64,000 bases of DNA from Lawsonibacter asaccharolyticus (lineage in GTDB: Bacteria; Bacillota; Clostridia; Oscillospirales; Oscillospiraceae): the NCBI GenBank assembly GCA_003112755.1, contig BFBT01000001.1:744001-808000 (forward strand). The letters are read 5' to 3'. The stretch's first letter is position 1. Every line of letters starts with the position of its first letter. This document shows positions 27,220-35,712 of this stretch, in pieces. The notes below the pieces were generated by a model that did no database searches, was not told where the DNA came from, and was given only the letters and a program-made list of their open reading frames with translations. The position numbers and the translations under genes are program-made.

Positions 27220-28377
27220 TTACAGGTTGCTTTTGAAGTTTCCCAGGACCCGCATCTCCGCGGATGCCTGGGACAGCTCCTGGAGGGCACCGTCCATCGC
27301 CGGGTCCGCCAGACTCCCGTCAAACTCCAGGAAGAACAGATACTCCCAGCTCCGTCCCGGCAGAGGGCGGGACTCCAGCTTCACCAGGTTCAGCCCGTGG
27401 ACGGCAAAGATGGTGAGTACCTCATGGAGGCTGCCCACCTCGTCCGGAAGGCTGAGGACCGCGGAGATCTTGTCCGCCCCCTCCCGCAGCTCCATCACCG
27501 GGGAGACCACCACGAAGCGGGTGGTGTTGTTGCTGTTGTAGTTGACTCCCCGGGCCAGGATCTCCAGGCCATACAGCTCCGCCGCCCGGCTGGAACAGAT
27601 GGCCGCCTTGGTGATATCCCCGGTCTGGGCCACATACTGAGCGCTGCCCGCCGTGTCCCCGTGGGCCACCCCCACCCAGCCGGGATGCCGGGCCAGGAAG
27701 GGCTCGCACTGGAAGAGCCCCTGCTCGTGGGAATAGACATGGGTGATGGTATCCAGGGTAGCCCCATGGGGAGCCATCAGGCAGTGCTCTACCTTGACGG
27801 TATTCTCCCCCACGATGTAGCACTCATACCTGCCCAGCAGCTCGTACACCTGGCGGATAGCCCCGGTGGAGCTGTTTTCGATGGGCACCACGCCGTAGTC
27901 CGCCCCGCCCTGGGCCACTGTCTGGAACACCTCTTCAAAGGTGGGCAGGCCCTGGCACCGGCAGTCCTCTCCAAAAAAGCGCAGGGAGGCCATCTCGCTG
28001 TATGCCCCCGCCACGCCCTGATAGACCACCCTGGGTCTCTCCACCGGCTGCCGCGCGGCGGCCTCGGCCCTCCGGCATCGGCTGTATCCCGGACCGCGAT
28101 CGTTCCCTCCCACCCGGCGCCGCAGGTCCCGGCGGCTGAGGGCCAGCACAGTCTCAAACAGGTGGGCCAGCTCTAGTTTCCGGCCCTCATCCAACGTCTC
28201 CGCCGCTGCGCTCCGGAGCACCTCCAGCTCCCGCCGGGGGTCCATCAAGGGCAGCCCCAGCTCCTCCTTGCAGGCCCCGATCCGGCCGGTCACCTCCATG
28301 CGCTTCAAAAACAGCTCCGCGATCTGATCGTCCAGGCGGTCCACCTCTTGCCGCAGGGCGGCCAAACAGTCTTCCAT
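27220..28377 (-). CDS. pheA: Chorismate mutase / prephenate dehydratase (P-protein)
   Basis: Bifunctional enzyme of phenylalanine synthesis: chorismate to prephenate to phenylpyruvate. 385 residues. AroQ-type mutase at 1-85 (LRQEVDRLDDQIAELFLKRM, DPRRELEVLRS), prephenate dehydratase from ~115 (VVYQGVAGAYSEMASLRFF, VVPIENSSTGAIRQVYELLG) with the catalytic NTTRFVVVSP motif, and an ACT domain with SLHEVLTIFAVHGLNLVKLE and ESRP, the Phe-binding allosteric site. Start ATG after GGAGGAGCGGAA. It lies 12 bases after azlD in one leftward operon, linking aromatic synthesis with amino-acid export. Confidence 0.93.
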   Translation of the reverse strand: MEDCLAALRQEVDRLDDQIAELFLKRMEVTGRIGACKEELGLPLMDPRRELEVLRSAAAETLDEGRKLELAHLFETVLALSRRDLRRRVGGNDRGPGYSRCRRAEAAARQPVERPRVVYQGVAGAYSEMASLRFFGEDCRCQGLPTFEEVFQTVAQGGADYGVVPIENSSTGAIRQVYELLGRYECYIVGENTVKVEHCLMAPHGATLDTITHVYSHEQGLFQCEPFLARHPGWVGVAHGDTAGSAQYVAQTGDITKAAICSSRAAELYGLEILARGVNYNSNNTTRFVVVSPVMELREGADKISAVLSLPDEVGSLHEVLTIFAVHGLNLVKLESRPLPGRSWEYLFFLEFDGSLADPAMDGALQELSQASAEMRVLGNFKSNL

Positions 28378-31844: not shown

Positions 31845-34800
31845 TCAGAAGAGGCTCAGCTGCTCTAGTCTCCGCTCCTGCCTCCGGCCCGCCTGCTCTT
31901 GGGCCACGCCCTGCGGCAGGCTGTCCAGGAAGGGAGAGGGTCCGCCCCCGGCGCTGAGGATCAGCTCCTCCCGGGCCCGGGTCATCCCCACATAGAGCAG
32001 CCGGCGCTCCTCCTCCAGATCCGCCGGACGGCCGGGCATCTCAAGGGGAAGCGTGCCTTCTGTCAGTCCCGCCACAAAGACGGCAGGAAACTCCAGTCCC
32101 TTGGAGGCGTGGAGAGTCATCAGCCGGACAGCCCCGGACTCCCAGCCCCGGCCCGCAGCCCGGCGCACATCCGCCTCCTCCCCCAGAGTGAGGGCCTCCC
32201 AGAGGGAGCGGAAGGCTGGGTAGAACACCGCCGTATTCCGCAGCTTCTCCAAGGCCGGCGAGGTCCCGTACCGCTCCTCCCAGCCCTCTACCAGTTTCCA
32301 TGGCTTCTCCTTCTCCACCGCTGGCTCCCACTCCTTCACCCGGTCCAGCCAAAGCTCTAGATGGCCATAGCCTCGGACCGCCTCCTCCAAGGCCGCCAAG
32401 TCTGCCCCCTGTGTCCAGAGGCGGCGGGCCCTTCCGGCCAGGTCGGCGGGACAGTCCCACAGAAGGCCCAGCGCGGTCTCCAGGGCTGCAGGGTCCGCCG
32501 GGCTTTGGAGGGAGCGGAAGAAAGCCAGTACTCCCCGCACCTGGCGGTCCTCCAGAAAGTCCTCCCGCCCGCTGACCACACAGGGGATGTCGTCGTGACG
32601 CAGGCACTTCTCCACCAGCTCCAGCTGCCGATGGGTGCGGCAGAGGACGGCGATGTCAGAGAAAGCCCGCACTGTCCGCTCGTGGCCCAGGGCCTGGGCC
32701 TCCAGCATGTCCACCCCGCCGGTCATACGGCCAATCTCCTTGGCGAGAAACACCCCCTCAGAGAAGGCATCCGGGCTCCTCACCATCCGTACCGCCGGGC
32801 CGGAGGGCCGGTTGGGGCGCAGGCGGCGGCAACCGCCCGGATTTTTCTCGATCACGGGGGCGGCAGCCTCCAGCACCTCCGGCGTGGAGCGGTAGTTCTC
32901 CACCAGCCGGATCTCCCGCAGCTCCGGCCGTTCCGCCCGCAGGCGCTGGAAACACTTCCCGTCCGCCCCCCGGAAACCGTAGATAGACTGGTCTGGGTCT
33001 CCGATGACAAAGAGCGACCCGCTGGCGCTCCAGGCCCGGACCAGCCGGTACTGGGTCTCGTTGATGTCCTGGAACTCGTCTACCAGCAGGTACCGGAAGC
33101 AGGTCCGGCCCCCAGTGTCCAGCGCCAGCGCCCGGATGAGCAGGTCATCAAAGTCCAGCATCCCCCGCTCCTCCAGCCGGGCACAGTAGGCCTGCCAGAT
33201 CTCCTCTTCCAGTCCAGCCGTCTCCAGAGACGCGCCGTTTTTTACCCGGGACACCCCCTGGAGCAGCGCCCGTGCGCTCCCCTTCCGGCCCAGCACCCGG
33301 AGGGTCTCCTCCGCCAGGGACAGGGCCTCCCCTTGGCCGATCAGCCCCACATCCCCCAGCAGAGCCAGGCAGATGGCATGGAAGGTCCCGATAGTCATGC
33401 GGGAGGCGGCCCGCCGCCCCAGGCGCTCCTCCAGCCGCTGGCGCATCTCAGCGGCTGCCTGGTTGGTGAAGGTCACCGCAGTGATCTCCCCCGGCCGGAC
33501 CCCCCGCTCCTCCACCAGCCACGCGATTCGGTCCACCAGGGTCTTGGTCTTGCCTGTGCCAGGTCCGGCCACCACCGCTACGGTTCGCTCCTCCGCCGAG
33601 ATGGCCGCCTGCTGCTGGGAATTGGAGCGCTGGAGGCCCTGCTCCCCCTCCCGCTCCGCCGCCTTCGGCCGCTTTGGGAGCTGTCCCCGCTTTTTCTCCC
33701 CCTGTTTTGGGGTCTCCTCTGCCCCAAACAGGGAGACCTGTCCGCTCAGGCGCTGAATCTCCGCCGGGGCAAGGAGGGAGATGGCACCGTATTCCCCGTC
33801 AAACCCGGGGCGGCGCTCCACCTGCCCCAGCCGCAGGCGCCGGATGCCCTCCGCCACGCAGGGGCCCGCTTCCCGCTGCAGGTCCTCTATGGGGACGTCC
33901 CGCAGGATAGTGAATTCCGGCCCCAGGGTCTGCAGCAAGCGCTCATACTGTTCCAGGGTCTTTTTCCCGGCGGCCGAGCCGCCGGTGGAGGCGGCGATCA
34001 CCTCCGGCAGGGGGGCCAGGCTCTCGAAGGGCTTGGCTTCCTCCGGCCGGAAGCCCGCCGGCCGGTCGGCCAGCTCCTCCACCCGGTGCTCCACCCCGAT
34101 GGTCAGCTTTTTCCCGCACACCGGACACAGTCCGCCCCGTTCCGCCGTCTCGGCGGGGGTGAGGCACACCCCGCAGTTCCGGTGTCCGTCCAGGTGGTAC
34201 TTTCCCTCCTCCGGGAAGAACTCCAGGGTGCCCAGAAGCCCCTCCCCGGTGCGGATAGCCTGGACCAGCTCCGGATAGGAGAGGCCGGTGTCCAGCAGGT
34301 CGGCCTCCCGGCCCAGCCTGGAGGGGGAGTGGGCATCCGAGTGGGACAGAAGGCTCAGCCGGTCCAGCGCCGATACCCGCCAGTTCATGGGCGGGTCAGA
34401 GGACAGTCCGGTCTCCACTCCGTGGATCTGGTCCGCCAGGTCCCCAAAGCACTCCTCGACGGTGTCAAAGCCGGAGAAGGCACCGAACATGGCAAAGTGG
34501 GGCGTCCAGATATGGGCGGGGATGAATTCGGCCTCTGGGCAGGTCTCCAGGGTCAACTCCAGCAGATCCCGGCTGTCCAGCCCCAGAATGGGGCGGCCGT
34601 CCGAGTGGATGTTGCCGATGGCCTCCAGCCGGACGGACAGTTCTTCCGCCGCTTCCAGGCTGGGGAGGAGGATCAGGTTGTGCACCTTCCGCGTCCGCCC
34701 GTGGCGCTTGTAGATGCAGCTGATCTCCCCGGTGACCACGAAACGGGGGGCGGCCCCGGGCGCAGTCCCCTCCATTGTCAGCCCCTCCCGCAGGGCATAG

Positions 34801-34985
34801 ACCCCCTCCCCCGCGGGGACCAGCTGCTCCCGCATCTCCGCCCGCCAAGCCGGATGGGTGAAGTCCCCTGTCCCTATCAGCTGGATGCCTTTGCGCCGGG
34901 CCCACCAGTCCAGGTGGGGCAAGTCGCAGTCCCGGCTGGTGGCCCGGGAGAACCTGGAGTGGATATGAAGATCAGCAATATACAT
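31845..34985 (-). CDS. EndoQ-like PHP nuclease fused to UvrD/Rep helicase
   Basis: 1046 residues. Residues 1-~430 match the EndoQ family (TIGR00375): PHP motif MYIADLHIHSRFSRAT, GTGDFTHPAW, PAHIWTPHFAMFGAFSGFDT, LSHSDAHSPSRLGREA, then a zinc knuckle CGVCLTPAE...CPVCGKK (~271-293). EndoQ nicks 5' of deaminated bases and abasic sites. From ~455 an SF1A helicase follows: GPGTGKTKTLVDRI (I), VTFTNQAAAEMRQRL (Ia), LLVDEFQDINETQY (II), GDPDQSIYGFRGAD (III), LVENYRST (IV), MTLHASKGLEFPAVF (V), EEERRLLYVGMTRAREEL (VI). All motifs are intact. The fusion joins lesion nicking to unwinding. Monocistronic. Confidence 0.88.
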   Translation of the reverse strand: MYIADLHIHSRFSRATSRDCDLPHLDWWARRKGIQLIGTGDFTHPAWRAEMREQLVPAGEGVYALREGLTMEGTAPGAAPRFVVTGEISCIYKRHGRTRKVHNLILLPSLEAAEELSVRLEAIGNIHSDGRPILGLDSRDLLELTLETCPEAEFIPAHIWTPHFAMFGAFSGFDTVEECFGDLADQIHGVETGLSSDPPMNWRVSALDRLSLLSHSDAHSPSRLGREADLLDTGLSYPELVQAIRTGEGLLGTLEFFPEEGKYHLDGHRNCGVCLTPAETAERGGLCPVCGKKLTIGVEHRVEELADRPAGFRPEEAKPFESLAPLPEVIAASTGGSAAGKKTLEQYERLLQTLGPEFTILRDVPIEDLQREAGPCVAEGIRRLRLGQVERRPGFDGEYGAISLLAPAEIQRLSGQVSLFGAEETPKQGEKKRGQLPKRPKAAEREGEQGLQRSNSQQQAAISAEERTVAVVAGPGTGKTKTLVDRIAWLVEERGVRPGEITAVTFTNQAAAEMRQRLEERLGRRAASRMTIGTFHAICLALLGDVGLIGQGEALSLAEETLRVLGRKGSARALLQGVSRVKNGASLETAGLEEEIWQAYCARLEERGMLDFDDLLIRALALDTGGRTCFRYLLVDEFQDINETQYRLVRAWSASGSLFVIGDPDQSIYGFRGADGKCFQRLRAERPELREIRLVENYRSTPEVLEAAAPVIEKNPGGCRRLRPNRPSGPAVRMVRSPDAFSEGVFLAKEIGRMTGGVDMLEAQALGHERTVRAFSDIAVLCRTHRQLELVEKCLRHDDIPCVVSGREDFLEDRQVRGVLAFFRSLQSPADPAALETALGLLWDCPADLAGRARRLWTQGADLAALEEAVRGYGHLELWLDRVKEWEPAVEKEKPWKLVEGWEERYGTSPALEKLRNTAVFYPAFRSLWEALTLGEEADVRRAAGRGWESGAVRLMTLHASKGLEFPAVFVAGLTEGTLPLEMPGRPADLEEERRLLYVGMTRAREELILSAGGGPSPFLDSLPQGVAQEQAGRRQERRLEQLSLF

Positions 34986-35078: not shown

Positions 35079-35450
35079 TCATATTCCGGGAGTTGAAGAC
35101 ACTCCCTCCTCTCTTCTCTCCATCGCCCGCTGCACATCGTTGGACAGGATCTCCAAAAATTCCGATGCGGTGGGCGGCCCGTCCAGGGGATACCCCGCCA
35201 TCTCCCGCAGCAGTTCCGGGTTGGTCCGCCACGCGATCTGCACCGCAGTGCGGATGTTCCGCTCCACCGCGGTCCATTTCCGCCCGCAGCGGCTGCCCAC
35301 TTCCCAGTAGATCTCCTTGGTCACTGCCTCCAGGCTGTCCTCCTGGTCCACCGCCAGCTGAATGGCCATTACGATGCGGCCATAACAGCGGCATCGCCTC
35401 GTGATCCCCAGGGCGCGCAGTTCCCGTCGAATTACATTTATTTCATTCAT
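35079..35450 (-). CDS. Orphan Spo0A C-terminal DNA-binding domain protein
   Basis: 123 residues covering only the sporulation-regulator Spo0A effector domain: ELRALGITRRCRCYGRIVMA, DSLEAVTKEIYWEVGSRCGR, KWTAVERNIRTAVQIAWRTN (recognition helix block of Spo0A is S-R-V-E-R-A-I-R-H-A-I-E-V-A-W) and ASEFLEILSNDV. No receiver domain. ATG at 35450 has GGGAGG eight bases upstream. It may bind 0A boxes (TGTCGAA) or compete with Spo0A without phosphorylation control. The neighbouring leftward gene is the EndoQ-UvrD fusion, 93 bases away. Confidence 0.85.
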   Translation of the reverse strand: MNEINVIRRELRALGITRRCRCYGRIVMAIQLAVDQEDSLEAVTKEIYWEVGSRCGRKWTAVERNIRTAVQIAWRTNPELLREMAGYPLDGPPTASEFLEILSNDVQRAMERREEGVSSTPGI

Positions 35451-35712
35451 CGACATTTCCTCCCAATTTAGTTTTAAGGAAATCATACGACAAAATGGAA
35501 GCAATTATATCAAATCCGACGATATGCGCTTAGATTCGTTTATATTCGACACTCGCTGTCCACATTCCCCCCTTTTTCTGCACCTCCTGCCCCCACATTC
35601 CTGAATTTTTATTTCCACCTATTTTGGGGGCTGGAAAATCGCTTCCTTTCATGCTATCCTCTGATAGGGATCCTTCTCTGTCCCCCCTGCCGCCTATCAG
35701 AAAGGAGCAATC

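Follow-up and report, generated by a model that had tools for sequence, protein, structure and literature searches.

A gene that encodes an EndoQ-type nuclease and a UvrD-type helicase in one open frame was identified in a 64,000-nucleotide stretch of the Lawsonibacter asaccharolyticus genome (contig BFBT01000001.1, positions 744,001 to 808,000 of the forward strand), herein referred to as the window. The gene occupies 31845..34985 on the minus strand and codes for 1046 amino acids followed by a stop codon. Judged by its motifs and folds, the product is a single polypeptide of a gut-type Clostridia bacterium in which a damage-specific nickase, EndoQ, is combined with a UvrD-type DNA-unwinding motor. 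The preliminary description of this DNA had proposed an EndoQ-UvrD fusion, and the proposal was borne out by an intact frame in many independent assemblies. Its domain assignment was also correct, and both active sites look intact. It had overlooked two putative beta-clamp-binding peptides, one at the end of the EndoQ part and the other at the C-terminus.

The predicted structure of the 1046-residue protein contains a complete EndoQ fold and a complete UvrD fold. The EndoQ domain (residues 1-412; 33750..34985, on the minus strand like all features of the gene given below) is composed of a PHP nuclease, a zinc knuckle and a C-terminal helical part. It is followed by the conserved motif QVSLF, the putative junction clamp-binding motif (residues 416-420; 33726..33740), and by a linker that is predicted to be disordered (residues 421-450; 33636..33725), with a predicted local distance difference test score (pLDDT) below 50 and a mean majority-residue frequency of 0.25. 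The SF1A helicase of the UvrD/PcrA type extends over residues 451-1032 (31890..33635), and the protein ends in the conserved motif QLSLF, the putative C-terminal clamp-binding motif (residues 1042-1046; 31848..31862).

The EndoQ identity of the N-terminal half is supported by both fold and residues. The TIGR00375 match that the preliminary description had anticipated was obtained over nearly the full model length (model positions 2-374); its score of 148.6 bits stays under the curated cut-off of 326.6. That cut-off is passed in only 2 of the 398 genomes of the phylum sample, and the separate EndoQs there mostly fail it too. The EndoQ fold was found across the whole domain, and 33% of 375 aligned columns are identical to PfuEndoQ. 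In PfuEndoQ, alanine changes of the zinc ligands Glu76, His84 and His139 are reported to abolish activity, and normal bases are barred by His139, Gly169 and Ser171, according to PMC8307549. The corresponding residues in the window protein (for Pfu E76, H84, H139, G169 and S171) are E87, H102, H158, G193 and S195. An alignment was built from 95 fused rows, 13 short rows of the same clade, 31 separate EndoQs and PfuEndoQ; it includes same-genome duplicates from different sources (e.g. L062/L108 and L076/L157), and its counts are not counts of independent species. The essential and lesion-gating residues of PfuEndoQ are kept throughout this alignment, with 94 or 95 of the 95 fused rows at each position. 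The lesion-gating trio (H158, G193, S195) is present in 94 of the 95, the remaining row being gapped; the frame-broken fragment L064 (872 amino acids) is the likely source of the gaps at key residues in one fused row. The PHP motif SDAH (residues 216-219; 34329..34340) is also conserved in the alignment, and the PHP metal ligands are present in the window protein. SDAH corresponds to chain positions 192-195 of PfuEndoQ, numbered one lower in the 2015 EndoQ paper.

The helicase half was compared in a second alignment, made of the window and 64 of 70 candidate loci; four loci were lost to the start pattern, L106 was left out because its C-terminus has no motif, and L110 because it is cut by a contig end. 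Eighteen SF1A motif positions, including K479, D636, E637, R699 and R1003, are invariant in all 65 aligned fusions. Motif I (Walker A) reads AGPGTGKT (residues 473-480; 33546..33569), with K479 and T480 invariant. All four UvrD domains, 1A, 1B, 2A and 2B, are present. The PcrA model scored 287.1 bits; every listed UvrD, PcrA and Rep model is below its cut-off, and no NCBIfam model reaches its cut-off with the fusion protein. PF27218 is pre-assigned in most of the listed protein-database relatives, and a Pfam search of the window protein gave no match to it. Other UvrD-type frames occur in the same genome, one of them PcrA-like by appearance (861 amino acids). The stretch between the conserved blocks flanking domain 2B (motifs IV-V) measures about 116 amino acids in the fusion versus about 142 in this PcrA-like protein, and is thus about 26 shorter.

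A QL[S/D]LF-type peptide is the consensus of beta-clamp clients. Such peptides were found in the window protein at 416-420 and 1042-1046, in disordered or terminal segments, and both adjoin variable stretches of low pLDDT. Two motif definitions were applied, a broad one (Qxx[LMF][FLWMY]) and a strict one (QxxL[FW]). Among the 65 aligned fusions, Q416 is kept in 65 and F420 in 52, and the broad motif at the junction is found in 61, compared with 4.6% of sequences shuffled from those letters. At Q1042, 64 of the 65 agree and one has a gap. A second count of the junction by a similar pattern gave the motif in 72 of 81 fusions; 13 more fusions were missed by the Walker pattern and left out. A larger set comprised 93 complete fusions, with the window copy and the L064 fragment counted in. 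Of these, 92 have the broad motif no more than 14 residues from the C-terminus, and 75 have the strict form; the broad motif occurs near the C-terminus in 31 of 2983 other frames from the same loci. The junction motif stands approximately where archaeal EndoQ ends in a PCNA-interacting peptide (PIP) box. In Thermococcus kodakarensis EndoQ this C-terminal PIP box is needed for PCNA binding and stimulation, and beta-clamp motifs were noted in the C-terminal regions of bacterial EndoQs, as stated in PMC4858679.

The fused frame recurs widely in both the family and the phylum samples, the phylogenetic spread that the preliminary description had proposed to check. TIGR00375 matched 15 of 150 genomes in the family sample, and 12 of those carry a single open frame of 1039-1173 amino acids. 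In the phylum sample, 207 of 398 genomes matched TIGR00375. Sixty of the 398 belong to the fusion clade, as defined by a search with the EndoQ half of the window (E <= 1e-40); the other 147 matching genomes lie outside it, at least four of them with weak matches (E 1e-8 or worse) that are likely not EndoQ. EndoQ had been presented as known mainly as a separate enzyme of archaea and some bacteria; this has to be revised, since it is common in this phylum. By open-frame length, 49 of the 60 clade genomes are fused (including G161, G319 and G481, truncated at contig ends, and G489, with an internal stop), and 11 have only an unfused copy (including G353, which ends at a contig edge, and G390, which is in fragments). 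At least 7992 relatives are held in the protein database; the 120 listed all measure 741-1099 amino acids, and fusions are named, for example, 'UvrD-helicase domain-containing protein' or 'TIGR00375 family protein'. A contig scan covered the best 80 of 588 relatives, with fused genes in, among others, Flavonifractor, Neglectibacter, Anaerotruncus, Eisenbergiella, Blautia, Christensenella, Propionispora and Enterocloster records. A fused copy was also seen in a metagenome bin recorded as Treponema sp. UBA4873 (L101), to be explained either by transfer from Clostridia to another lineage or by a contaminant contig in the bin.

A tree of 72 EndoQ domains was made by a quick method from 45 of the 95 fused rows (selected to cover a wide spread), the window, the 13 short rows, 12 of the 31 separate EndoQs and PfuEndoQ. 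The fused and short rows form one group, to which the separate Clostridia EndoQs and PfuEndoQ do not belong (support 100, with PfuEndoQ on a long branch). Short rows are interspersed with fused ones, and the starred branches force at least five changes; the 13 short rows include two from broken genes, L064 with a broken frame and L090 with an in-frame stop between EndoQ and helicase. In our reading of this pattern, the fusion arose once and the helicase was then lost repeatedly; a single origin is not proven by the tree. The distances of the two halves are correlated (Mantel r 0.75, a value reached in 0 of 1000 permutations), which is expected of any single inherited gene and argues only against domain swapping. 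Two close sister EndoQs, L133 and L159, differ in that one is fused and the other stops just short of the junction motif, its locus having yielded no helicase frame. On contig C112 of G150 and contig C6 of G450, a fused copy is accompanied about 5-10 kb away by a second in-clade EndoQ frame of about 465 amino acids, the match to which crosses one in-frame stop.

The fusion is fairly likely to act as a clamp-docked enzyme that nicks and peels deaminated and abasic DNA. Characterised EndoQs nick 5' of the lesion and leave a 3'-OH and a downstream strand whose 5' end carries the lesion. Going by its conserved residues, the EndoQ half would flip a hypoxanthine, uracil or xanthine nucleotide, or an apurinic/apyrimidinic (AP) site, into its zinc pocket and nick 5' of it, giving the same 3'-OH and the same lesion-bearing 5' end. 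UvrD/PcrA relatives have 3'->5' polarity. A 3'->5' helicase on the nicked strand would peel the wrong side, and loading on the intact strand is therefore predicted. The SF1A half would load at the nick, move 3'->5' along the intact strand and lift the lesion-bearing strand as a 5' flap, and we infer that nicking and unwinding are coupled in this order. QVSLF and QLSLF would dock into the pockets of the dimeric beta clamp, holding nuclease, helicase and polymerase at one site, with the clamp at the 3'-OH for resynthesis. The polymerase would then extend the 3'-OH, and a 5' flap nuclease and a ligase would finish. A polymerase, a 5' flap nuclease and a ligase are still required after any nick 5' of a lesion, and the window genome keeps a glycosylase for uracil, so the 'self-contained' pathway of the preliminary description is too strong a term.

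A further-reaching reading is less likely than not: a one-protein nucleotide-incision repair machine that fills both clamp pockets with its own two peptides, nicks and peels deaminated bases, and can replace uracil-DNA glycosylase (UDG) and EndoV in anaerobic Clostridia. The distribution of UDG and EndoV counts in favour of the nick-and-peel enzyme itself. UDG (PF03167) was found in 357 of the 398 phylum genomes, and the 41 without it comprise 18 of the 60 clade genomes, 16 of the 147 that match TIGR00375 outside the clade and 7 of the 191 that do not match TIGR00375; absence in incomplete genomes may be missed sequence. The absence is associated with the clade (18/60 vs 23/338, Fisher p 2e-6), with any TIGR00375 match versus none (p 2e-5), and with the clade versus other EndoQ (p 0.0016), an association that is confounded by ancestry. 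The 18 UDG-less clade genomes span 13 family codes. Five families allow a contrast of fused versus other genomes, and each points in the same direction, these families having been tabulated by hand and chosen after the data were seen. The test stratified over them gave a one-sided p of 0.0007, or of 0.017 when one family was reduced to its genera and another omitted. Within the clade, UDG is absent from 18 of 49 fused and 0 of 11 unfused genomes (Fisher p 0.024), a comparison that rests on the frame-length classing. EndoV (PF04493) was found in 7 of the 398 genomes, none of which matches TIGR00375 (p 0.0055); three of the seven come from one family, and this non-overlap is likewise confounded by ancestry. 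The alternative route of deamination repair suggested in the preliminary description thus gains some independent support from the enrichment of the gene in UDG-less genomes and from the lack of EndoV/EndoQ overlap, shared ancestry being a confounder.

Besides these limits of ancestry and family choice, several observations weigh against the nick-and-peel reading. No biochemistry of any fused member was found in the literature. The bacterial peptides are candidate clamp binders on motif and position only. The motif lies in the last 30 residues of just 1 of the 31 separate EndoQs, and a clamp link of bacterial EndoQ as such is therefore unsupported in that set; none of the 13 short in-clade EndoQs has it in the last 40 residues, L106 lacks the C-terminal motif, and some junctions deviate. 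The zinc knuckle (H268-C271-C287-C290; 34116..34184) is HCCC and not the CCCC of PfuEndoQ and of all 31 aligned separate EndoQs, with H268 at the position of Pfu C249; histidine is found there in 94 of the 95 fused rows, and such a knuckle could still bind zinc. The helicase appears dispensable in some lineages because helicase-less in-clade EndoQs recur. The genome of the window has UDG itself (2 matches), so uracil repair by the fusion would be redundant there; EndoV (PF04493) gave no match in this genome, which has two Exo_endo_phos-family frames and an nfo match only below the cut-off. In the genus sample, EndoQ is sporadic, found in 2 of 61 genomes (2 of the 31 of good quality), and the copy outside the window is unfused. 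An empty-site search of the genus with an 11.2-kb query gave listed matches that cover other stretches of the query, plus one EndoQ match (G586), and does not separate insertion from loss. LexA-like boxes are not enriched in 83 upstream regions: GAAC-N4-GTTC occurs in 0 exactly and in 4 with at most one mismatch (shuffles 8.4%), a second pattern in 2 exactly (shuffles 1.5%) and in 15 with at most one mismatch (shuffles 29%), and a third in 0 and 2. SOS regulation was rejected.

The opposite order of action, in which the helicase works first, travelling on DNA close to replication forks, and the emerging single strand is sampled by the EndoQ half, which nicks its deaminated bases, so that unwinding is a search and not peeling, is unlikely. 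Two clamp-type motifs would put the enzyme at the replisome, and PfuEndoQ cuts uracil and hypoxanthine better in single-stranded DNA than in the tested duplexes; the same source describes an abasic-site analogue in single-stranded DNA as a very poor substrate (PMC11354406). By reasoning, a single-strand nick at a fork would break the fork, and no sequence feature decides the order. Two ordinary enzymes carried as one chain, with independent halves and a fusion that merely fixes their ratio, are less probable still. In its favour, the linker is variable and of low pLDDT, and helicase-less relatives recur; against it, 49 of the 60 clade genomes have a fused copy by the frame-length classing, and the clamp-type peptide of the junction is kept in 61 of 65. 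A sequencing or annotation join of two genes, the outcome that the preliminary description had named as fatal, was looked for in relatives and is ruled out for practical purposes by the recurrence of the fused frame. Nothing in the window speaks for a join; loci L064 and L090 do show a broken or stopped version, while the frame is intact across many independent assemblies, including single-contig or complete genomes such as G078 and AP025576.1.

An improbable role is anti-phage or anti-plasmid defence, in which the protein would nick and unwind uracil- or hypoxanthine-rich or otherwise modified foreign DNA in the manner of Gabija. The helicase half matches PADLOC models of GajB (234.7 bits and E 4.8e-70 for the best), the gene has a patchy distribution in the genus, and a review considers an antiviral role of bacterial EndoQ possible (PMC8307549). 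The PcrA model, however, outscores GajB at 287.1 bits, and among solved structures PcrA stands far above GajB (5.3e-65 vs 7.7e-10). Neighbours were surveyed as frames of at least 90 amino acids within 7 kb of the 93 fused loci and the window, or up to the contig end where that came sooner. No neighbouring gene is shared by the majority of the loci, no search aimed at GajA having been made; the commonest cluster, which by eye looks like ABC-transporter ATPases, occurs in 20 loci on mixed sides and strands. A tblastn search with the EndoQ half covered 50,697 phage and 72,556 plasmid records and gave no match, and among viral contigs eight stretches fitted a pattern, none of which encoded a relative. 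A housekeeping repair function is suggested by the clamp-type motifs and by the association with missing UDG. A defence system was rejected as a candidate: PADLOC gave 46 matches, and the 25 listed are 24 GajB and one RTasHel (DRT), all over the helicase part. A mobile gene was rejected as well, there being no phage, plasmid or confirmed viral-contig match. These negatives, and the lack of a neighbour shared by most loci, also count for the nick-and-peel reading.

Within the window the neighbours of the fusion gene are ordinary. Directly upstream, 35079-35504 on the minus strand encodes a 141-residue protein with little beyond a Spo0A C-terminal DNA-binding domain (PF08769, E 1.4e-25, residues 25-122) and no receiver-domain match. 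Farther away, 27220-28377 on the minus strand encodes a bifunctional chorismate mutase and prephenate dehydratase with an ACT domain.

Returning to the clamp-docked nick-and-peel enzyme, its parts are known and their combination is common in sequence databases. No description of an EndoQ-helicase fusion was found in the literature, going by the titles and abstract openings of the matches listed, and a full-text literature search for TIGR00375 gave no match. The fusion could be a one-protein start of deaminated-base repair. It could also explain how deaminated bases are handled in some UDG-less Clostridia, within a phylum sample nearly without EndoV. The natural helicase fusion and the two clamp-type peptides point to candidate next steps after the nick, which are open to study with a single purified protein.

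Compared with known systems, the fusion shares with EndoQ (PfuEndoQ, TkoEndoQ and Bacillus pumilus EndoQ; TIGR00375) the whole fold, the PHP site, the lesion-gating residues and the position of the zinc knuckle, and with archaeal EndoQ a clamp-type peptide after the core. It differs from EndoQ in the attached helicase, the HCCC instead of CCCC knuckle and the TIGR00375 score below the cut-off. The conserved motif residues and the four-domain fold are common to the fusion and the SF1A helicases UvrD, PcrA and Rep, from which it is set apart by scores below the cut-offs, a shorter putative 2B stretch and the clamp-type motif at its end. Gabija likewise combines a nuclease with a UvrD-like helicase; its GajA has another fold and is a separate gene, and no partner gene recurs in most of the loci surveyed around the fusion. 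In the rolling-circle pairs RepD-PcrA and gpA-Rep, which are separate proteins with sequence-specific covalent nickases and serve replication rather than repair, a nick loads an SF1A helicase and unwinding proceeds from the nick. This nick-loaded SF1A helicase is the likeness between those pairs and the mechanism proposed for the fusion.

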